Source: Sphingomonas astaxanthinifaciens DSM 22298
Lineage (GTDB): Bacteria; Pseudomonadota; Alphaproteobacteria; Sphingomonadales; Sphingomonadaceae
DNA: 64,000 nucleotides
Direction of reading: 5' to 3'
Assembly: GCF_000711715.1 (NCBI RefSeq)
Contig: NZ_JONN01000001.1
Span: 1,364,001-1,428,000, forward strand
The first letter of the stretch is position 1. The number at the start of each line of letters is the position of its first letter. Below are positions 35,268-57,610 of the stretch, in pieces. The translations under genes and the position numbers were made by a program. Below the pieces are notes generated by a model. That model saw only the letters and a program-made list of their open reading frames with translations, had not been told where the DNA came from and did no database searches.

Positions 35268-36094
35268 TGGACGATCTGGTCTCGGTCGAATGGCTGGCGG
35301 CGAACCTTCGGGCGGCCGACCTCGTCGTCCTCGATGCGAGCTGGCACCTCCCCGCCGCCAATCGTGATCCCCGCCAGGAATATGAGGCGCGCCACATTCC
35401 GGGTGCGCGCTTCTTCGACATCGACATGCTGGCCGATCATGACGCCGCGACGAGCCACATGCTGCCGAGCGCCGAAGCCTTTGGCGCGGGGATGGAGGCG
35501 CTGGGAGTCGGGCGCGACGACCGGATCGTCGTCTACGACGACAGCGCGCTCCGGACCTCGGCGCGGGCCTGGTTCATGCTCCGCCATTATGGCGCGCGGC
35601 AGGTGGCGATCCTTGACGGCGGCTTGGCCGCCTGGCTGGCGGCGGGCCAGCCGGTGACCGACGCTCCGCCGCCCGGGCGCCCGGCCCGCTTCGCGGCTAC
35701 CGCGCAGCCGGGCGAGGTGGTGACCAAGCGCGACCTGCTGCAAGGGGTCGGAGTGCCGGTCGCCGACGCGCGCGGCCCCGGCCGCTTCGCCGGGTCCGAG
35801 CCCGAGCCGAGGCCCGGGGTCGAGCCAGGCCACATCCCGGGTGCCAGGAATCTCCCCTTCAGCGCGCTCTATGGCGAGGATGGCCGCTTCCGGCCCGTGG
35901 CCGAGCTTCGGCGGGCCTTCGCAGCGGCGGGAATCGATCCCGAGCGGCCGTTCGTCGCGACCTGCGGATCGGGGGTCACCGCCAACAGCCTGATCTTCGC
36001 CGCGCGGCTGATCGGCAACCGCGACACGCGGCTCTATGACGGCAGCTGGAGCGAATGGGGGTCGGACCCGCAGACGCCCAAGGAACAGGGTTAG
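35267..36094 (+). CDS. sseA: Sulfurtransferase (rhodanese / 3-mercaptopyruvate sulfurtransferase)
   Basis: Two-domain rhodanese of 275 residues. The inactive N-terminal domain has the family segments DASWHLP and YEARHIPGARFFDID, with VYDDSALRTSARAWFML. The C-terminal domain has GHIPGARNLPFSAL and the active loop CGSGVTAN with nucleophile Cys233. A CGSGVTA loop points to 3-mercaptopyruvate rather than thiosulfate as donor. It starts at ATG 35267, overlapping the queF stop by one base. It is convergent, with a 4-base overlap, with the small gene at 36091. Confidence 0.92.
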   Translation: MDDLVSVEWLAANLRAADLVVLDASWHLPAANRDPRQEYEARHIPGARFFDIDMLADHDAATSHMLPSAEAFGAGMEALGVGRDDRIVVYDDSALRTSARAWFMLRHYGARQVAILDGGLAAWLAAGQPVTDAPPPGRPARFAATAQPGEVVTKRDLLQGVGVPVADARGPGRFAGSEPEPRPGVEPGHIPGARNLPFSALYGEDGRFRPVAELRRAFAAAGIDPERPFVATCGSGVTANSLIFAARLIGNRDTRLYDGSWSEWGSDPQTPKEQG

Positions 36095-36447
36095 GCGCGG
36101 CCCGCGAAGAGGGCTTCGATCCCGGCAAGGTCGCGGCGAAGGCTTTCGCCGAGCACGTCCAGCGCGGCCGGATTCGGGGTCTCGCCCGCGCTTTCCGCCC
36201 CGAGCAGCGCCTCGATCCCCGCCGCGGCGGCCCCGGCGGCGCGGATCGAGCGGCCGTCGACGCAGCGCTGGACCGGTGCCGGTGCGAGCGGAAGCAACTC
36301 CTCGAAAGCGATAGTCGCGGGATCACGGCGAGGCCGGCCCTCGAACATCTCGACCAGAGCGAGCGCCTGGCGAACGCTGCGCAGGCGGGCGACCGCCTCG
36401 GCATAAGGCGCCGTTTCGGCCGGCTGCTCGGGCTGGAAGTGGATCAT
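36091..36447 (-). CDS. Hypothetical protein
   Basis: A 118-residue soluble protein rich in Ala, Glu and Arg, predicted mostly helical. No signal peptide, membrane segment, metal motif or recognised domain. Visible segments are AVARLRSVRQALALVEMFEG and LDVLGESLRRDLAGIEALF, both amphipathic. It lies downstream of the DNA-binding protein gene at 36511 on the same strand (63-base gap with a small hairpin). Its stop overlaps that of sseA. Codon use matches the neighbours, supporting a real gene. Confidence 0.6.
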   Translation of the reverse strand: MIHFQPEQPAETAPYAEAVARLRSVRQALALVEMFEGRPRRDPATIAFEELLPLAPAPVQRCVDGRSIRAAGAAAAGIEALLGAESAGETPNPAALDVLGESLRRDLAGIEALFAGRA

Positions 36448-36478
36448 GCGACTCGGAAGTAAGCGCGCATGGTTGAGG

Positions 36479-36510: not shown

Positions 36511-37062
36511 TCAGGCGGCCGCGGTCTCGAGGTCGCGGAGGATCCAGCCGCGCTGCGGAATGGTCTCGATGAACTCGGCTCCGCCGCTCGCCATCCTGAG
36601 CTTCTTGCGCAGCTTGGAGATGAAGACGTCGATGATCTTGGGCTGCGGCTGGTCGTCCGAGCGGCGGTAGAGATGCTTCAGAAGCATCGTCCGCGTGACG
36701 ACATTGTTGCGCGCGAATGCGAGCAGCTCGAGCACGCGATATTCCATCTCGGTGATGGCGATCGGGTGGCCGTCGATGCGGATCAGGCGCTGAACCTGGT
36801 CGACCGCCATGCGACCGCCGCACAGGGTCGGCGGAAGCTCCGAGCCGGCCGCCTTGAGGCTGGCGAGCAGCTTCGAGGCGACGTCGTCGGCATCGTCGCG
36901 CGCGCCGAGGCTGACCGGCGCCCCGATCAGCTGCTGCTGCAGGTCGGCGACCAGCGCATGCGCTTCCTCGGCCATCTTCTGACCTTCCTCGAAGCGCTTG
37001 CGCGAACGCTCGAGCAGCGCCTCGACCTCGACCAGGCGGGCGGAAATCGTATCGTCAGCCAT
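36511..37062 (-). CDS. Winged-helix DNA-binding protein with CtrA-like C-terminus and no receiver
   Basis: A 183-residue protein. Residues about 85-178 form an OmpR/PhoB-type winged helix very like that of the cell-cycle regulator CtrA: AITEMEYRVLELLAFARNN, VVTRTMLLKHLYRRSDDQPQPKIIDVFISKLRKKL and EFIETIPQRGWILRD. The usual receiver domain is absent. In its place residues 1-50 are a charged helix (LVEVEALLERSRKRFEEG..AEEAHALVADLQQQ), probably a coiled coil for dimerisation. It therefore cannot be controlled by Asp phosphorylation. It may bind CtrA-like sites (TTAA-N7-TTAA); this is inference. Start ATG 37062 has GGGAGGGTG upstream. Confidence 0.85.
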   Translation of the reverse strand: MADDTISARLVEVEALLERSRKRFEEGQKMAEEAHALVADLQQQLIGAPVSLGARDDADDVASKLLASLKAAGSELPPTLCGGRMAVDQVQRLIRIDGHPIAITEMEYRVLELLAFARNNVVTRTMLLKHLYRRSDDQPQPKIIDVFISKLRKKLRMASGGAEFIETIPQRGWILRDLETAAA

Positions 37063-37088
37063 GTATCACCCTCCCCTGGTTCACGCGT

Positions 37089-37508
37089 CTACGGGGTCTG
37101 CACCGAGGCGACCTGGCCGTCGCTGGCGGGCGCCGCGAGGATGGTCTGGGTCATCGGCCCCTTGTCGACCACCGCGGTGTCCGGGCTTCCGGCGACCGAG
37201 CGGGCGCCGAGCGCGGTGCGGTCGGCACCGGCCTTCTCGAGCAGCTGGCTCTCGCTCTGCGGGCGCGGCGCGGGACCGCCGAACAGGGTCTGGACCGCCT
37301 GCTGCTGCGCGCCCTCGGCCGACAGCGAGGCCGTGCCCGGCTTGGGCGGGGTCAGGCTGTAGTCGGGCGGGATCACCAGCGGCGCGTTGCGCGCCACGCG
37401 GAACTCGTCGAGCTTGGCGCCGCCCCCACCGCCGATGCCGAAGACGCCGCAGCCGGAAGTGGCCAGCGCCGCCGCGGTCAGGGTGAGGAAGGTCAGGGAC
37501 TTACGCAT
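37089..37508 (-). CDS. bamF: DUF3035/BamF-type lipoprotein
   Basis: Outer-membrane lipoprotein of 139 residues. The lipobox SGC at about residues 17-19 follows a short signal peptide (MRKSLTFLTLTAAALAT). The conserved DUF3035 block is DEFRVARNAPLVIPPDYSL. In Caulobacter this family is a subunit (BamF) of the BAM complex. The ATG at 37508 overlaps lspA by 8 bases; a TTG two codons upstream is also possible (GGAG lies 4 and 10 bases away respectively). Order ileS-lspA-bamF is the usual alphaproteobacterial arrangement, coupling signal peptidase II to a lipoprotein substrate. Confidence 0.85.
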   Translation of the reverse strand: MRKSLTFLTLTAAALATSGCGVFGIGGGGGAKLDEFRVARNAPLVIPPDYSLTPPKPGTASLSAEGAQQQAVQTLFGGPAPRPQSESQLLEKAGADRTALGARSVAGSPDTAVVDKGPMTQTILAAPASDGQVASVQTP

Positions 37509-47436: not shown

Positions 47437-48354
47437 CTAGCGCAGGAAGTTCACCAGGCTGAGGTTCGAAAGCCGGCTGAAGACGGTGTAGCTCGCCTGG
47501 AGCGTCGTCTGCTGCTGGGTGAGCGTGCTCGCCACCTCGGCCATGTCGGCATCCTCGTTGCGCGCGACCAGCCGTTCCATGATCAGTGCCCGGTCGGCCG
47601 CGCGGTCGGTCATGCTCTCGACCTGCGCCTGGCGCCGCCCGACCTCGGCCCGGACGGCGCGAAGGCTCTTCATGCCATCGTTGATCTGGCCCACCGCCTG
47701 GCCCAAAGCGGCAAGCTGCGCGGGTGTCGGGGCATCGGGGATCGGGCCGATCCCGGCGAGTGTCCGGAACGCATCGTACAGTCCCGCACCAAGCGCGCTC
47801 GCAGTCGTGCCGTAGGCGATGTCATAGCCCTCGGCGACGCGGGCGCTGGCCTCGACATTGTCGTTGGCGAAGGCATTGGCGGTCGGAACGCCGGCGCTCG
47901 CCGCAAGGCTGGCGGGGACGAAGGGCGCGGTGTCGGTGCGCGACCCGGCGAACAGGAAGGTCCCGCCCTCGTCGCTGTTGAGCGCGGTGCGGAAACGCTG
48001 GAACGTCTCTTCCGCCAGTTCCTGAAGCCCCTCGGCACGGCCGGTCGCCGAGGCTTCGAGGAGCTTGGTGCGGAGGTCGTTCATCGCCTCCTCGATCCCG
48101 CCGATCTGGGTGTCGACCAGCGCCAGCGTGGTGCCGACCCGCGCCCCCACCGCGGCATGGGCTTCCTGCCGCGCGAGTAGCGTCCGCGCCGACAGGTTGC
48201 GCATCGTCTCGATCCCGAGCGAGGCGAAATCGGGCGCCTTCTTGCCCGTCGCCAGCTGCTGCTGGGTCTCGGCCAGCCGCCGCTGCGAGAAGGCGATCGA
48301 TTCGAACAGGGTCCGCTGCATCGGCACGGTCGCCACCCGATTCCATCCGCTCAT
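47437..48354 (-). CDS. flgL: Flagellar hook-associated protein 3 (FlgL-like flagellin family)
   Basis: Hook-filament junction protein. 305 residues with flagellin-type ends: N-terminal RVATVPMQRTLFESIAFSQRRLAETQQQLATGKKAPDF-type helix (MQRTLFESIAFSQRRLAE) and C-terminal LTQQQTTLQASYTVFSRLSN followed by LSLVNFL. The centre contains GTFLFAGSRTDTAPF. Its ATG overlaps the end of the partial flgK by 4 bases, the normal flgK-flgL order. The gene itself appears intact. No other flagellar gene is in the window, so its function is doubtful. Confidence 0.9.
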   Translation of the reverse strand: MSGWNRVATVPMQRTLFESIAFSQRRLAETQQQLATGKKAPDFASLGIETMRNLSARTLLARQEAHAAVGARVGTTLALVDTQIGGIEEAMNDLRTKLLEASATGRAEGLQELAEETFQRFRTALNSDEGGTFLFAGSRTDTAPFVPASLAASAGVPTANAFANDNVEASARVAEGYDIAYGTTASALGAGLYDAFRTLAGIGPIPDAPTPAQLAALGQAVGQINDGMKSLRAVRAEVGRRQAQVESMTDRAADRALIMERLVARNEDADMAEVASTLTQQQTTLQASYTVFSRLSNLSLVNFLR

Positions 48355-48794
48355 CGCCGCATCATCCCGATCAGAGTGTCGTACATCTCGGTTGCCGTGG
48401 TCATCACCCGGGCGGCCGCCGAATAGCTGTTCTGGAGCGTGACGAGACTGGCCAGTTCCTCGTCGATGTTGACGCCCGAATAGCTGTCGCGGCGGTTGAC
48501 CGCGTCGGCCTTGCGCGCGGCCATGTCGTTCAGCCGATCCTTGGCGCCCGCCGAATCGAGCCCGGCCTGGCCGAGCACGTAGCTTGCGAAATTCTCGATC
48601 CCCGAGACCCGTCCGCGGCCAAGGTCGACCGCCGCGCGGAGCTGGTCGACGAAGGCATTGGCGCCGCGATTGTCGCCCGCACCGGATGCGGCGCCCGACA
48701 GGTCGGGGCCGGCAACAAGGGCAAGGAAAGCGACCAGCATGACCGCAAGGTGCACCTGGCACCGTCGCCAGGCAAGCAGGCGCGAGGCCGGCAA
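48351..48794 (-). pseudogene. flgK: 3' remnant of flgK (hook-associated protein 1)
   Basis: Only the last 100-120 residues of FlgK are recognisable: GDNRGANAFVDQLRAAVDL, FASYVLGQAGLDSAGAKDRL, and the family-specific C-terminus SYSGVNIDEELASLVTLQNS, then YSAAARVMTTATEMYDTLIGMM. A full FlgK has 450-650 residues and starts with a SxxxAxxAL rod motif, absent here in all frames up to the endolysin gene. The first ~45 codons of the open frame do not look like FlgK. The frame could still be translated from a TTG at 48794, but a truncated gene is the best reading. Confidence 0.75.
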
Positions 48795-48813
48795 GAGAGT
48801 CCTGTCCTACACA

Positions 48814-48828
48814 TAACCGATTAGGTTA
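48814..48828. promoter_or_regulatory. Dyad upstream of the endolysin gene
   Basis: TAACC-gatta-GGTTA is a perfect 5-bp inverted repeat with a 5-base centre, 44 bases before the endolysin ATG and next to TTTATAG (48831-48837), a possible -10 element. The AT-rich character contrasts with the surroundings. A regulator binding site is plausible; which regulator is unknown. Confidence 0.45.
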
Positions 48829-48871
48829 GCTTTATAGCGACTCGGAAGCCCCCGTATCGAGGAATGACATC

Positions 48872-49441
48872 ATGACCGGAAGCGCCTCGTCCTTCGACGT
48901 CCAGACCTTGATCGAAGAACTGATGGCCCGCGAGGGGGATTTTGTCGACCATCCGGCCGACAAGGGCGGGGCGACACGCTTCGGAATAACCGAAGCGGTT
49001 GCCCGGGCCCATGGCTACGACGGCCCGATGGCGCTTCTCCCGCGGGACGAGGCGGCGGCCATCTATCGTCGCCTCTACTGGCTCCGTCCGGCTTACGACC
49101 AGGTCGCCCGCCGCGCCCCGCGCGTTGCCGCCGAACTGTTCGACACCGGGGCCAACATGGGACCGGGCGTCGCCACCACCTTTCTCCAGCGCGCACTCAC
49201 CGCCTTGAACCGGAATGGCAAGGATTATCCGGATCTCGAGCCCGACGGTCGGGTCGGTGCCGCCACCCTCGCCGCGCTCGACGCCTATCTCGCGCTGCGC
49301 AAGGAGGAGGGCGAGACGGTCCTCCTCCGCGCGCTCGAGGCGCTGCAGGGCGAACGCCATCTCCGCCTGGCCGAGAAAAGACCCGCAAACGAGGCCTTTC
49401 TCTATGGCTGGCTCGCGAACCGGAGCGGTGATTCCGACTGA
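48872..49441 (+). CDS. Glycoside hydrolase family 108 endolysin (N-acetylmuramidase)
   Basis: Peptidoglycan-cleaving lysozyme of 189 residues. The GH108 domain (residues about 10-100) has LIEELMAREGDFVDHPADKG with likely catalytic Glu in REGDF, then GGATRFGITEAVARAHG and IYRRLYWLRPAYDQV. The C-terminal part has LFDTGANMGPGVATTFLQRAL and the PG_binding_3-like region DGRVGAATLAAL. No signal peptide, so export would need the holin encoded 52 bases downstream. This endolysin-then-holin order is that of the lysis genes of the Rhodobacter gene transfer agent. ATG 48872 has GAGGAATG upstream. Confidence 0.9.
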   Translation: MTGSASSFDVQTLIEELMAREGDFVDHPADKGGATRFGITEAVARAHGYDGPMALLPRDEAAAIYRRLYWLRPAYDQVARRAPRVAAELFDTGANMGPGVATTFLQRALTALNRNGKDYPDLEPDGRVGAATLAALDAYLALRKEEGETVLLRALEALQGERHLRLAEKRPANEAFLYGWLANRSGDSD

Positions 49442-49492
49442 GACGCGACTCGCGCACCCCGTGACTTTTGTGACCTTTGTCAGGAACTGCTC

Positions 49493-49906
49493 ATGCCCAT
49501 CATCGAAGCCATCGTCGGCCCCGTCGCCAAGGTCATCGACAAAATCATTCCCGATCCCCAGGCGCGCGACCGCGCCAAGCTCGAACTGCTCAAGCTCGAG
49601 GGCGACCAGGAGATGGCCGCGATCGCCCAGCAGATGCAGGCGATCGTGGTCGAGGCGCAGTCGGCCGACCCGTGGACGAGCCGGGCGCGCCCGAGCTCCC
49701 TCTACGTGATGTACGCGCAGATACTGTGGTCGATCCCGATGGGGCTGATCGCCGCCGCCAACCCGGCCACCGCCGCCGCCATCGGTACCGGCATGACCAG
49801 CTATCTGCGCGGCCTGCCGAGCGAACTCTACACGCTCTTCGGCACCGGCTATCTCGGCTACACCGCCGCCCGGACCTGGGGGAAGATGCGCGGGGTCGAG
49901 CGCTAG
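49493..49906 (+). CDS. Three-TM holin of the GTA type
   Basis: A 137-residue membrane protein: an amphipathic N-terminal helix (MPIIEAIVGPVAKVIDKIIP), a charged segment (residues about 20-62), then membrane segments at about 68-90 (LYVMYAQILWSIPMGLIAAANP) and 90-130 (AAAIGTGMTSYL, FGTGYLGYTAARTW). It fits the family called 'holin of 3TMs, for gene-transfer release'. It would permeabilise the inner membrane so the endolysin can reach the wall. Paired with the GH108 endolysin it forms a complete lysis module. No spanin gene is seen. Confidence 0.85.
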   Translation: MPIIEAIVGPVAKVIDKIIPDPQARDRAKLELLKLEGDQEMAAIAQQMQAIVVEAQSADPWTSRARPSSLYVMYAQILWSIPMGLIAAANPATAAAIGTGMTSYLRGLPSELYTLFGTGYLGYTAARTWGKMRGVER

Positions 49907-51465: not shown

Positions 51466-52385
51466 TGGCGAGGCCGTCGCGTCAGGCGCCGTGGCGCAAC
51501 ATCCCCCGTGCCGCGGCCGAACTGGTCGACCGCTTCGGCTGGAACCCGGTCTCGCTCCTCAACCGGATCGATCGCCTGACCCCGGGCCGCGGCGACCGGG
51601 CGCGCAAGGCAGGCGAGGACGTCAAGTTCGGCCCCCACGCCCGCCATCACCTCGACATCTGGGTCCCTTCGCACCCGACCTCGGCGCGGCTTCCGGTGGT
51701 GATCTTCTTCTATGGCGGCGGCTGGCACTCGGGCGAGCGCGGCGATTATGGCTTTGCCGGCGCGGCCTTCGCGGCGAACGGCTTCGTCGCGGTGGTGCCC
51801 GACTACCGGCTGGTGCCCGAGGTCCGCTATCCCGACTTCCTCGACGATGCCGCGCTGGCGCTCAAATGGGTCTGGAACAACATCGCTCACTATGGCGGCG
51901 ATCCGACCCGGATCAGCGTCGCCGGCCATAGCGCGGGCGCATATATCGCCGCGATGCTGGCGCTCGACCCGCGCTGGACGGACTCGGTCAAGCTGCCGAG
52001 GAACACGGTCAAGGCGGGCGTGCTTCTCTCGGGGCCGTTCGACTTCGCTCCCTTTCGCGAGTGGCGCGGCCGGGCGACCTTCGGGAGTTTTCCCGACCCG
52101 TTCGAAACCCAGCCGGTCAATCACGTCCGCGCCGACGCCCCGCCCCTGCTGCTCCAGCACGGCAGCGCCGACCGACTGGTCTATGCCAAGAACAGCCGCA
52201 GCCTTGATGACGCGCTGACCAGGGTCGGCGCGCCGCACGAGATGAAGATCTACCGCGGCTGCGACCATGCCGGGACCGTGGTCGCCCTCTCCCGCCCCTT
52301 TCGCGGCCGCTATCCGGTGCTTGCCGACGCGGTCGCTTTCTTGCGCTCGGTGCTCGGCGTTCCCACCTCTCCGCCAACCAAGTGA
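51465..52385 (+). CDS. Alpha/beta hydrolase (carboxylesterase, hormone-sensitive-lipase-like)
   Basis: A 306-residue esterase. Oxyanion-hole segment [20 protein letters not shown] (residues about 78-97), nucleophile Ser in [15 protein letters not shown] (about 148-162), Asp probably in HGSADRLV and His in [10 protein letters not shown]. The N-terminal 70 residues carry a charged stretch. It may cleave lipid esters, which would suit its coupling to the PLD-like gene. No signal peptide is evident. ATG at 51465 overlaps the upstream stop. Confidence 0.88.
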
Positions 52386-52396
52386 GCGGGACAACA

Positions 52397-52933
52397 ATGG
52401 AACAATGGCACGGCACCACCATCCTCGGGGTGCGCAAGGACGGCCGCACGGTGATCGCCGGCGATGGACAGGTCAGCATGGGCAATACCGTTATGAAGCC
52501 CAATGCGAAGAAGGTGCGGCGGCTGGGCCGTGACGGCCAGGTGATCGGCGGCTTCGCCGGCGCGACCGCCGACGCCTTCACCCTGTTCGAGCGGCTCGAA
52601 AAGAAGCTCGAGGCGAGCCAGGGCCAGCTGCTGCGCGCCGCGGTCGAGCTCGCCAAGGACTGGCGGACCGACAAATATCTCCGCAACCTCGAGGCGATGA
52701 TGATCGTCGCCGATGCCGAGGTGATGCTGGTCATCACCGGCAATGGCGACGTGCTCGAGCCCGAGGGCGGGATCGCCGCGATCGGCTCGGGCGGGCTCTA
52801 CGCCTTGTCGGCGGCGAAGGCGCTCGCCGACTATGAGGGGGACCCCGAAAAGCTTGCCCGCCGCGCGATGGCGATCGCGGCCGAAGTCTGCGTCTTCACC
52901 AACGACCGGCTGACCGTGGAGACGGTCGGCTAG
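52397..52933 (+). CDS. hslV: ATP-dependent protease subunit HslV
   Basis: Proteasome-like threonine peptidase of the HslUV complex. 178 residues. The catalytic Thr follows MEQWHG and is exposed by removal of that propeptide (TTILGVRK). Conserved parts are [33 protein letters not shown] and [17 protein letters not shown] 52397 gives the short propeptide usual for the family; GTG at 52382, overlapping the upstream stop, would add five residues. The hslU gene follows after a repeat element. Confidence 0.96.
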
Positions 52934-52947
52934 GCTCACCCCATCGC

Positions 52948-53017
52948 CGTTCGTGCCGAGCGAAGTCGAGGCACCCAAGCGCGAACGGCCCCTCGACTTC
53001 GCTCGGGACCAACGGAG
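52948..53017. repeat. Dispersed inverted repeat, family A copy 4, between hslV and hslU
   Basis: CGAGCGAAGTCGAG (about 52957-52970) pairs with CTCGACTTCGCTCG (about 52992-53005), flanked by 'cgttcgtgc' and 'ggaccaacggag'. The terminal ACGGAG (53012-53017) lies 7 bases before the TTG of hslU, the same spacing as copy 2 before the SDR gene. Confidence 0.85.
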
Positions 53018-53024
53018 CTCTACC

Positions 53025-54323
53025 TTGAATTCTGACCTGACCCCCAAGACCATCGTCGCCGCGCTGGACAACCACATCATCGGCCAGGCCGACGCCAAGC
53101 GCGCGGTCGCGGTCGCGCTTCGCAATCGCTGGCGGCGCCAGCAGCTCGGGCCCGAGCTGCGCGAGGAAGTCACGCCCAAGAACATCCTGATGATCGGGCC
53201 GACCGGATGCGGGAAGACCGAGATCAGCCGCCGATTGGCGAAGCTTGCCGACGCCCCCTTCGTAAAGGTCGAGGCGACCAAGTTCACCGAGGTCGGCTAC
53301 GTCGGGCGCGATGTCGAGCAGATTGCCCGCGATCTCGTCGAGGAAGCCGTCCGGCTCGAGAAGGAGCGCCGCCGCGAGCGGGTCCGCGCCGCCGCCGAGG
53401 AGGCGGCCATGGACCGGCTGCTCGACGCGCTGACCGGCAAGGGCTCGAGCGAAGCGACACGCGCCAGCTTCCGGGACCGCTTCTCCGACGGCAGCCTCGA
53501 CACCGCCGAGGTCGAGATCGAGGTCGCCGAGGCGCCGAATATGCCGTTCGACCTGCCGGGCCAGGGCGGGGTCGGCATGATCAATCTCAGCGAGATGATG
53601 TCGAAGGCGATGGGCAGACCGCCCAAGAAGCGGCGCAAGCTCAAGGTGCCGGCGGCCTTCGCCAAGCTGACCGAGGAAGAGGCCGACAAGCGCCTCGACC
53701 AGGACGACATCACCCGTGTCGCGCTGGCCGACGCCGAGGCCAACGGGATCGTCTTCCTCGACGAGATCGACAAGATCGCGGTCAGCGACGTGCGCGGCGG
53801 CTCGGTCAGCCGCGAAGGCGTCCAGCGCGACCTCCTGCCGCTGATCGAGGGGACGACGGTCGCGACCAAATATGGGCCGCTCAAGACCGACCACATCCTG
53901 TTCATCGCGAGCGGCGCCTTCCACGTCGCCAAGCCCGCCGACCTCCTGCCCGAGCTTCAGGGCCGGTTGCCGATCCGGGTCGAGCTGAAGGCGCTGACCG
54001 AGGGGGATTTCGTCCGGATCCTGTCGGCAACCCGCGCCAGCCTGACCGAGCAATATCGGGCGCTGCTGGCGACCGAGGGAGTGAGCATCACCTTTGCCGA
54101 CGAAGGCATCCGCGCGCTCGCCCGGATCGCCGCCGAGGTGAACGAGAGCGTCGAGAATATCGGCGCGCGGCGGCTTCAGACGGTGATGGAGAAACTGCTC
54201 GAAACCGTCAGCTTCGAGGCCGAGGACCGCAAGGGCGAAAGCCTCACCGTCGACGCGGCCTTCGTCGAATCGCAGCTCGCCGACCTTGCGCGCAACACCG
54301 ACCTCAGCCGCTACGTGCTCTGA
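53025..54323 (+). CDS. hslU: ATP-dependent protease ATPase subunit HslU
   Basis: AAA+ unfoldase feeding HslV. 432 residues: [20 protein letters not shown], Walker [16 protein letters not shown], pore loop GYVGRDVEQ, Walker [13 protein letters not shown], sensor region [12 protein letters not shown], and the C-terminal [11 protein letters not shown] that inserts into HslV. The intermediate domain is of normal length. The start is TTG at 53025 ([10 protein letters not shown]), with ACGGAG 7 bases upstream supplied by the repeat element. The frame runs further upstream through the repeat, but without similarity. Confidence 0.96.
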
Positions 54324-55673: not shown

Positions 55674-56018
55674 ATGCCCGACTTGAGCCTGATCCTCGCC
55701 GCAGCCGCTGCTCCAGCCGCTCCGTCCGGTGCGACCGCCTTCCTGATCCAGACTTTCCCCTTCCTGCTGATCTTCGTGATCTTCTATTTCCTGATGATCC
55801 GCCCGCAGCAGAAGCGCGTGCGCGAGCATCAGGCGATGATCGACGCGGTCAAGAAGGGTGACGACGTGATCACCGCCGGCGGAATCCGCGGCCGGGTGAC
55901 CCGGGTCGTCGACGAGCGCGAGGTCGAGGTCGAGATCGCACAGGGCGTTAAGGTCCGTGTGGTGAAGTCGACCCTGACCCAGATCCTCGGCGCCCCGACC
56001 AAGCAAGCGAACGACTGA
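55674..56018 (+). CDS. yajC: Preprotein translocase subunit YajC
   Basis: Small single-span partner of SecDF, 114 residues: an N-terminal Ala-rich stretch, the membrane segment FPFLLIFVIFYFLMIRPQQ (about 28-46), and a cytoplasmic domain (KKGDDVITAGGIRGRVTRV, with VVKSTLTQIL). The TGA overlaps the secD start (TGATG). No obvious SD precedes ATG 55674 (GTCCACGCG); the weak site could reflect low expression. Confidence 0.95.
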   Translation: MPDLSLILAAAAAPAAPSGATAFLIQTFPFLLIFVIFYFLMIRPQQKRVREHQAMIDAVKKGDDVITAGGIRGRVTRVVDEREVEVEIAQGVKVRVVKSTLTQILGAPTKQAND

Positions 56019-57610
56019 TGTTCGATCCGCCGAAGTGGAAGATCTGGACGATCTTCCTCGCGATCGCCCTCGGCGTCGCCTTCGCCATTCCGAGTTTCTT
56101 TCCGCGCAGCGAAGTCGCCACCTGGCCGAAGTTCGCCCCGCGGACCCAGATCGCCTACGGGCTCGACCTTGCCGGCGGCAGCCAGCTGCTGCTCGAAGCC
56201 GACCTTGCCGACGCCACCCGCCAGCGGCTCGCCGCCATGGAGGACAGCGTTTCCCAGGAGCTTCGGCGCGAGCCGCGGATCCAGGCCGGCGACATCTCGG
56301 TCGCCAACGGCCAGCTGAGCTTCATGCTGCGCGACCCCACCCAGCTCGACGCTGCGGTGGAGCGGGTCCGCACCCTGACCCAGGGCGTCGGCCTGACCGG
56401 CACCCGCACCTGGAACGTCAGCACCCAGGACGGCAACCGGGTCATCATGGTCCCGACACCCGAGGGCAATGCCCAGGCGGTCAAGGAAGCGATGACCGTC
56501 GCCCGCGACGTCGTCCGCCGCCGCATCGATCCGTCGGGCACCCGCGAAGTCACCGTCATCAATCAGGGCTCGAACCGGATCCTGGTGCAGGTCCCGGGGA
56601 TCGACGATCCCGAGGCGCTGAAGCGCCTGATCGGCCAGACCGCCCGGCTCGAGTTCAAGCTGGTCGACCAGCGCGCCGATCCGGCCCAGGTCGCGCAGGG
56701 CCGCGCGCCCGCCGGCAGCCAGGTCCTGCCGATGGCCGATGGCCAGGGCAATATCGCAGTCCAGCGCCGCGTGATGGTCTCGGGCGAGCAGATCGCCAGC
56801 GCGCAGCAGACCTTCGACCAGCAGACCGGCGCGCCCAACATCACCATCCGCTTCGATTCGGCCGGCGCCAAGCGCTTCGGCCGGACCACGACCGAGAATG
56901 TCGGCAAGCCCTTCGCCATCATTCTCGACAACAAGGTGCTGTCGGCGCCCAACATCAACGAGCCGATCCTCGGCGGCACCGCAACCATCAGCGGCGGCTT
57001 CACGGTCGAGACGGCCAACGAGCTCGCCATCTCGCTGTCCTCGGGCAAGCTGCCGGTGAAGCTCGATCCGATCGAGGAGCGGACCGTGTCGCCCGACCTC
57101 GGCAAGGATTCGATCCAGTCGGGCCTGATCGCCTCGGCCATCGCGATCTTCGCGGTGATGTTCTTCATGGTCATCACCTATGGCCGCTTCGGCTGGTATG
57201 CGAACCTCGGGCTCGTCATCAACGCGCTGCTGATCCTCGGCATCATGGGGATCTTCGGCTCGGCGCTGACGCTGCCGGGCATCGCGGGCTTCGTGCTGAC
57301 GATCGGTGCGGCGGTCGACGCCAACGTGCTGATCAACGAGCGCATCCGCGAGGAGCAGCGGCGCGGCCGCAAGATCCTCGACGCGATCGAGACCGGTTAC
57401 AAGGAAGCCTCCACCGCCATCTTCGACGCCAACATCACCAACGTCATCGCCGCCGCGCTGATGTGGTATTTCGGCTCGGGCCCCGTGCGCGGCTTCGCCA
57501 TCGTCCTCCTGATCGGCATCGTCACCTCGGTCTTCACCGCGGTGAACTTCACGCGCCTGCTGGTCGCCCTGTGGGTCCGCAAGAACCGCCCGCGCGAACT
57601 GCATATCTGA
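56018..57610 (+). CDS. secD: Protein translocase subunit SecD
   Basis: Uses the proton gradient to complete protein export through SecYEG. 530 residues with six membrane segments: TM1 (IFLAIALGVAFAIPSF), the family motif YGLDLAGGSQLLLEADL, the large periplasmic P1 domain (about residues 60-350), and five C-terminal helices including AVMFFMVITYGRFGWYANL, TIGAAVDANVLINERIREE and FGSGPVRGFAIVLLIGIV. 11 bases separate it from secF. Confidence 0.97.
   Translation: MFDPPKWKIWTIFLAIALGVAFAIPSFFPRSEVATWPKFAPRTQIAYGLDLAGGSQLLLEADLADATRQRLAAMEDSVSQELRREPRIQAGDISVANGQLSFMLRDPTQLDAAVERVRTLTQGVGLTGTRTWNVSTQDGNRVIMVPTPEGNAQAVKEAMTVARDVVRRRIDPSGTREVTVINQGSNRILVQVPGIDDPEALKRLIGQTARLEFKLVDQRADPAQVAQGRAPAGSQVLPMADGQGNIAVQRRVMVSGEQIASAQQTFDQQTGAPNITIRFDSAGAKRFGRTTTENVGKPFAIILDNKVLSAPNINEPILGGTATISGGFTVETANELAISLSSGKLPVKLDPIEERTVSPDLGKDSIQSGLIASAIAIFAVMFFMVITYGRFGWYANLGLVINALLILGIMGIFGSALTLPGIAGFVLTIGAAVDANVLINERIREEQRRGRKILDAIETGYKEASTAIFDANITNVIAAALMWYFGSGPVRGFAIVLLIGIVTSVFTAVNFTRLLVALWVRKNRPRELHI

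Follow-up and report, generated by a model that had tools for sequence, protein, structure and literature searches.

It is debated why bacteria retain gene transfer agents (GTAs), particles whose release is lethal to the producing cell; lysis genes usually serve a particle. In the GTA of Rhodobacter capsulatus (RcGTA), the endolysin and holin genes rcc00555 and rcc00556 are described as lying outside the head-tail cluster (PMC3423380, PMC9638019, PMC6363796), and the activator GafA is reported to bind its own promoter plus the lysis promoter (PMC6363796). DUF6456 is given as an annotation of GafA homologues (PMC9638019), and gafA homologues are counted in 196 of 208 alphaproteobacterial genomes (PMC9765227). 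The Caulobacter GTA (CcGTA) is likewise released by dedicated host-lysis genes, namely LypABC, and the available part of that account states that no holin-endolysin homologue was found in the genome (PMC13236601). Sen1395 is treated in a paper on TtsA, a muramidase on which the secretion of typhoid toxin depends (PMC6996933).

The lysozyme-holin pair considered here lies at C1:1412872 in Sphingomonas astaxanthinifaciens DSM 22298, within a window of 64,000 nucleotides (C1:1364001-1428000), which is the whole stretch of DNA that was analysed. Because of its family, its place and its promoter, we regard it as a GTA-type lysis module, and very probably as a lysis cassette for the release of an alphaproteobacterial GTA, located at a conserved site apart from the head-tail genes and now orphaned. 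The features of the locus and its two syntenic anchors are as follows:

48802..48811, + strand: promoter core element CTGTCCTACA, the sole CT[GT]TCCTACA in the 64-kb window
48815..48827, + strand: inverted repeat AACC-N5-GGTT, right after the core (looser pattern in 58 of 75 loci)
48872..49441, + strand: GH108 muramidase (endolysin), 189 aa, without signal sequence (Pfam, PHROGs, solved structures)
49493..49906, + strand: GTA_holin_3TM holin, 137 aa (PF11351, 5.4e-29)
52382..54323, + strand: hslV-hslU, syntenic anchor, context outside the module (tblastn)
55740..57607, + strand: yajC-secD matches, second syntenic anchor, context (tblastn)

The first-pass annotation had placed the locus at 48872..49906, coordinates that omit the promoter elements at 48802-48827, and had described a signal-less GH108 lysozyme gene followed after 51 bases by a three-TM holin gene. 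Both ORFs are intact, and the 51 bases between them stand, as does the missing signal sequence, a simple hydropathy scan having found no hydrophobic segment in the lysozyme; the same scan shows only weak segments in the holin, for which the three-TM label rests on the family. The lysozyme matches PF05838 (4.1e-23) and PF09374 (PG_binding_3, 2.4e-18) in Pfam and endolysin in PHROGs (6.5e-42), and its closest solved structures are 6v3z, aligned over residues 12-184, and 6v40. The holin matches PF11351 over model positions 2-123 of 123, i.e., over its full length, and holin in PHROGs (2.3e-27). One GH108 gene and one PF11351 match were counted in the genome (2.53 Mb, 99.97% complete). In searches of this genome, no match to GTA_TIM, capsid, portal, TIGR02217 or TerL falls inside the 64-kb window, and the earlier statement that these 64 kb contain no structural phage gene holds for all five. 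As in an RcGTA-type lysis module, the endolysin gene adjoins a PF11351 holin gene and both lie away from head-tail genes (rcc00555/rcc00556 being compared by description), here 1.15 Mb from a relic head-tail cluster (C1:256944). Unlike in RcGTA, the particle genes are broken, no full-consensus CtrA site was found, and the pair has hslVU and yajC-secD as neighbours. CcGTA differs in its lysis proteins, LypABC taking the place of a GH108 endolysin and PF11351 holin as present here.

The core CT[G/T]TCCTACA stands upstream of the lysozyme gene in 75 of 82 loci (L054, one base off, being scored as a miss), and 58 of the 75 core-bearing lysis loci have the pattern [AG][AG]CC-N5,6-GG[TA]T no more than 28 bases from the core, compared with 0.36% after shuffling. 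The 2.41 Mb of collected loci hold 92 distinct core copies, 77 of them before a lysozyme gene, nine before a homologue of the DUF6456 gene, one before a solitary holin gene and five elsewhere. Since these loci were partly picked for a lysozyme, 77 is not an unbiased share; more telling are the presence of the core before nine of 12 DUF6456-gene homologues, the remaining three carrying near variants (by eye), and the fact that just five copies are unassigned. In the promoters of the DUF6456-gene homologues, the inverted repeat precedes the core, and its pattern is found in seven of the nine, the exceptions being L109 and the present genome. Here the core occurs at both places, before the lysozyme gene and, 62 bases ahead of the start, before the DUF6456 gene (C1:254341-254817; PF20057, 1.4e-37), which lies 2.1 kb before the GTA portal gene and is divergent from an XRE-type regulator gene. 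Such a divergent XRE-type gene also accompanies the homologue in L040, L131 and L135 and was not seen in L136; Pfam confirms the domain in the proteins of this genome and L135 only. In the 500 bases that precede the portal gene, the core was absent from all six loci (only 75 bases being available in L141), and it was likewise absent upstream of TerS in 16 loci, with L135 (one mismatch, other strand) and L140 (the lysis site itself) as exceptions. The core also differs from the sites published for Caulobacter, which are ACTATG (GafY) and GGAA-N4-TTCC (RogA).

As read from sequence, the promoter element is common to the lysis pair and the GafA/GafY-type (DUF6456) gene, which parallels the binding of the RcGTA lysis promoter by the DUF6456-domain activator GafA. 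The lysis pair looks like part of a GTA regulon, and the targets predicted here by analogy, the activator's own promoter and the lysis promoter, are the same two as those of R. capsulatus GafA. The activator, once made, or its divergent XRE partner would act at CTGTCCTACA / AACC-N5-GGTT, and this action would switch on the lysozyme-holin pair. The holin would then open the inner membrane, the cytoplasmic muramidase would pass and cut the wall, and the cell would lyse. In ancestors, such lysis would have freed GTA particles; in the present genome, where the known particle genes are broken, the pair persists as an orphan with both its control elements and its coding sequence intact. The element may offer a way to trace the Sphingomonadaceae GTA regulon by sequence, and the available portions of the literature on GTAs of this group hold no description of it or of these lysis genes.

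The gene order in the window is lysozyme-holin-PLD-esterase-hslVU-yajC-secD. Scanning a single genome from each species returned 258 lysozyme relatives, the best 80 loci of which were analysed, several of them ending early at contig ends; their records bear names from Sphingomonadales, apart from one MAG labelled just as Pseudomonadota. Among these best 80 of 258, tblastn detected the holin in 66, HslV and HslU downstream of the lysozyme in 55 and 52, and SecD and YajC in 40 and 39, respectively. GTA-probe matches occur in four of the 80, and TerS-TerL only in Sphingomonas arenae (L007/L141), which has a complete set of GTA genes and where TerS-TerL (L007) directly adjoins the lysis pair in divergent orientation. 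Other genera of the family can have the PF11351 holin without this lysozyme, and in at least six of ten such loci (L101-L104, L107, L109) a solitary holin gene lies between secD-yajC and aroQ. To judge from these gene orders, synteny is conserved and the pair has been kept as a module by vertical descent within Sphingomonadaceae.

Descent from a prophage, although phage records contain relatives of both proteins (502 for the lysozyme, 14 for the holin), is therefore highly improbable: the best phage identities are 63% and 54%, the best 80 of 258 relatives lie in the Sphingomonadales-named records (and the one MAG) with HslV adjoining in 55, each genome has a single holin match among the matches listed, and neither phage neighbours nor a variable insertion site emerged from the 80 loci searched with GTA probes. 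The pair shares its protein classes with phage endolysin-holin-Rz/Rz1 cassettes, and seven relatives possess holin-like and Rz/Rz1-like genes; unlike such cassettes, it occupies a site that appears vertically inherited, has no phage neighbours in these searches and bears a putative GTA-type promoter element. The first-pass annotation, which had denied that the pair is a prophage scrap and proposed a synteny comparison across Sphingomonadales, is supported on this point by the 55 loci (best 80 of 258) with HslV beside the lysozyme, by the promoter element common with a GTA-activator homologue and by the TerS-TerL adjacency in S. arenae.

The GTA itself is broken in the present genome. Its single portal (PF04860) and single HK97 capsid (PF05065) genes are mutually adjacent, and the capsid ORF continues in frame into DUF2793, with PF05065 reaching residue 359 and PF10983 beginning at 353. 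In the clusters of four relatives (L093-L096), about 9-11 kb with the tail genes separate the capsid from DUF2793, and a similar outer-membrane gene comes next; the fusion of the two in this genome therefore indicates that the tail genes have been deleted here. Neither TIGR02217 nor GTA_TIM has a match in the genome, and the only TerL match, isolated at C1:840834 and with about 47-50% identity to most of the GTA TerLs in the comparison, is interrupted by a stop codon, while the capsid::DUF2793, portal and protease ORFs remain open. The genome search for a GTA head-tail cluster proposed in the earlier note has thus yielded a relic without tail genes, and not the working structural cluster that an RcGTA-type system would have. 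The claim that the pair is the lysis module of a GTA survives as to type; since the genome's GTA is broken, the pair is not here the lysis module of a working one. With the GTA broken and the pair intact, the lysis module has outlived its particle. Tblastn with the probes of one cluster found remnants of other extent in 11 relatives (L128-L133, L135, L136, L138, L139, L143), and these differences indicate that GTA clusters have been broken in several different ways.

Across 199 family genomes, the association between holin and GTA is only moderate. GTA_TIM (PF13547), matched in one of the 199 and there below cut-off, is nearly absent from the family and hence uninformative, and TIGR02217 and the capsid of this genome were used as markers instead, counted as present at E <= 1e-36 and E <= 1e-80, respectively, with "neither" denoting no match whatever. 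PF11351 was found in 152 of the 199 genomes (one match each among the matches listed), including 103 of the 124 with capsid and TIGR02217, 15 of the 21 with a partial set (this genome included) and 34 of the 54 with neither (Fisher p 0.006 for 103/124 vs 34/54, uncorrected for kinship), leaving 21 of the 124 GTA genomes without a PF11351 holin. Genomes with a GTA (28/124) and those with neither marker (10/54) have a close lysozyme (E <= 1e-55) at about the same frequency. In four GTA-less genomes (G012, G036, G056, G068), a homologue of the DUF6456 gene preceded by the core lies at a distance of about 5-9 kb from the holin gene. GTA genes were scored in 44 of the 80 lysozyme loci, and TIGR02217 is present in 25 of these 44 lysozyme-bearing genomes, one of them below cut-off.

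If the GTA broke only recently, the pair and its promoter may simply have had no time to decay, a passive persistence that we consider a real possibility, although one open to doubt. The capsid::DUF2793, portal and protease ORFs, still open, look as they would after a recent break, and no PF11351 holin accompanies the lysozyme in nine of 19 genomes without TIGR02217 compared with two of 25 with it (the genomes being non-independent, and L015 having 611 bases after the lysozyme); the holin is also broken in two more genomes without the marker, L012 (stop near the end) and L019 (frame changes). Other results speak against passive persistence. In eight of the nine holin-less genomes without the marker (L006, L009, L010, L014, L015, L017, L022, L025), the lysozyme gene is followed by the gene of a related 2-TM, holin-like protein, conserved and without a family, whose frame is open in seven and lacks a start and looks shortened in L014; L009, from S. 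alba, has neither GTA tail nor capsid genes. Seven of the eight also have an Rz-like gene in which an Rz1-like lipoprotein gene is nested, an assignment made mainly from gene layout, the spanin (Rz/Rz1) profile match being weak (best 0.0016); in L015 the Rz-like gene begins and the contig then ends. Nor was relaxed selection seen on the orphaned lysozyme. Among pairs with dS < 1.5, median dN/dS is 0.19 (0.08-0.42; 195 of 210 pairs) without the tail marker and 0.22 (0.07-0.41; 275 of 300) where the marker is present, dS being near saturation in many pairs; the full distributions were used because nine hand-picked pairs gave 0.06-0.26 and the lowest-dS pairs up to 0.42. Scaled to HslVU, the lysozyme evolves no faster in the 17 lineages without the marker than in the 15 with it (p 0.12, in the direction opposite to relaxation), the ratios being inflated at several GTA-positive tips whose HslVU branches, near zero, were floored at 0.01. 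Deviations at 79 conserved lysozyme columns amount to 0.86 per sequence without and 0.92 with the marker, and the promoter core is kept in 20 of 21 and 22 of 25 loci, respectively. As the loci were chosen for holding a lysozyme, its intactness is partly ascertainment, and since large parts of the branches may be older than the loss of the GTA, the constraint seen in relatives fits continued use but does not prove it.

The activator-lysis circuit may instead have been re-purposed and kept for a benefit of its own (DNA, vesicle, enzyme or nutrient release through the lysis of a small number of cells, or type 10-like secretion aided by holin and muramidase), which seems conceivable but rather unlikely. 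This would fit the PF11351 holin in 34 of 54 genomes with neither marker, the activator homologue with core near the holin in the four GTA-less genomes, and the cassette versions bearing spanin-like genes, and the nearest solved relative, Sen1395 from the TtsA typhoid toxin secretion paper (PMC6996933), resembles the present lysozyme as a GH108 muramidase of a type 10-like system without a phage. Unlike in the TtsA/Sen1395 systems, no conserved cargo gene adjoins the pair (PLD in three and esterase in 15 of the best 80 of 258 loci), and the promoter element appears common with a GTA-activator homologue; moreover, most branches may largely predate GTA loss. That the pair frees another particle encoded elsewhere in the genome, such as a tailocin or a second GTA, would agree with the usual role of lysis genes and with the lone interrupted TerL at C1:840834, but is improbable, given that the sole HK97 capsid and portal, the two families searched, both lie in the relic. 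A broader and more speculative proposal, which we judge unlikely while worth stating, is that the Sphingomonadaceae GTA regulon has repeatedly been stripped to activator and lysis cassette, with activator-controlled suicide lysis kept by selection and even re-equipped with other holins and with spanins. If true, this would amount to programmed lysis without particles, the structural genes having been lost via different internal deletions, and a clade with repeatedly broken particle genes but persisting regulator-linked lysis could separate the effect of lysis from that of gene transfer.

For the orphaned GTA release cassette that we favour, control by CtrA was considered and found no support. 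The first-pass annotation had linked the pair to a receiver-less CtrA-like DNA-binding protein encoded in the window. Such a protein exists, namely a Trans_reg_C protein without receiver domain at 36511-37062 (- strand; PF00486, 8.5e-16, residues 98-174 of 183), Pfam having returned nothing CtrA-like for the window ORFs 36673-37359 and 36055-36459, the gene being on the other strand. Its link to the pair is not supported: among 81 upstream regions scanned for the full TTAA-N7-TTAA consensus, none has a site with fewer than two mismatches, the RcGTA-type promoter site thus being absent here in that form, and the 10 sites with two mismatches fall below the 17.6 in mononucleotide-shuffled sequence.

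Several smaller observations concern the surroundings of the pair and its relatives. A C-terminal FlgK fragment (147 aa, 48351-48794, - strand) ends 8 bases before the lysis promoter core, with the FlgL gene (47437-48348, - strand) next to it. Both are absent from the available flanks of the 80 related loci (tblastn, best 80 of 258), so a rearrangement probably joined them here, and the idea of a flagellar muramidase, suggested by these neighbours, was dropped. L029, L030, L035, L037, L042, L046, L048, L049 and others have short holins of about 81-94 aa, which match roughly residues 50-137 only, and in L100-L104, L107 and L109 the solitary PF11351 holin gene lies near yajC-secD with a DUF6456-gene homologue about 5-9 kb off. 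Most of the 11 cluster remnants retain TerS-TerL and DUF2793, and in several of them pieces of distant genes abut or overlap; in relatives that keep TIGR02217 (L140/L007, L142, L144), TerS-TerL is separated from the capsid cluster. Further core copies stand ahead of other genes, at L074:4608, before a gene with a TerS match, at L020:2627, before an HTH gene similar by eye to that of L074, and at L006:2818. Finally, GANTC, the CcrM methylation motif, was counted within 60 bases of the core over the core-bearing lysis promoters (e.g., 48802-48861 in the window) and occurs in 17 of 20 GTA-negative and seven of 22 GTA-positive loci, as well as in 11 of 33 loci not scored for GTA.
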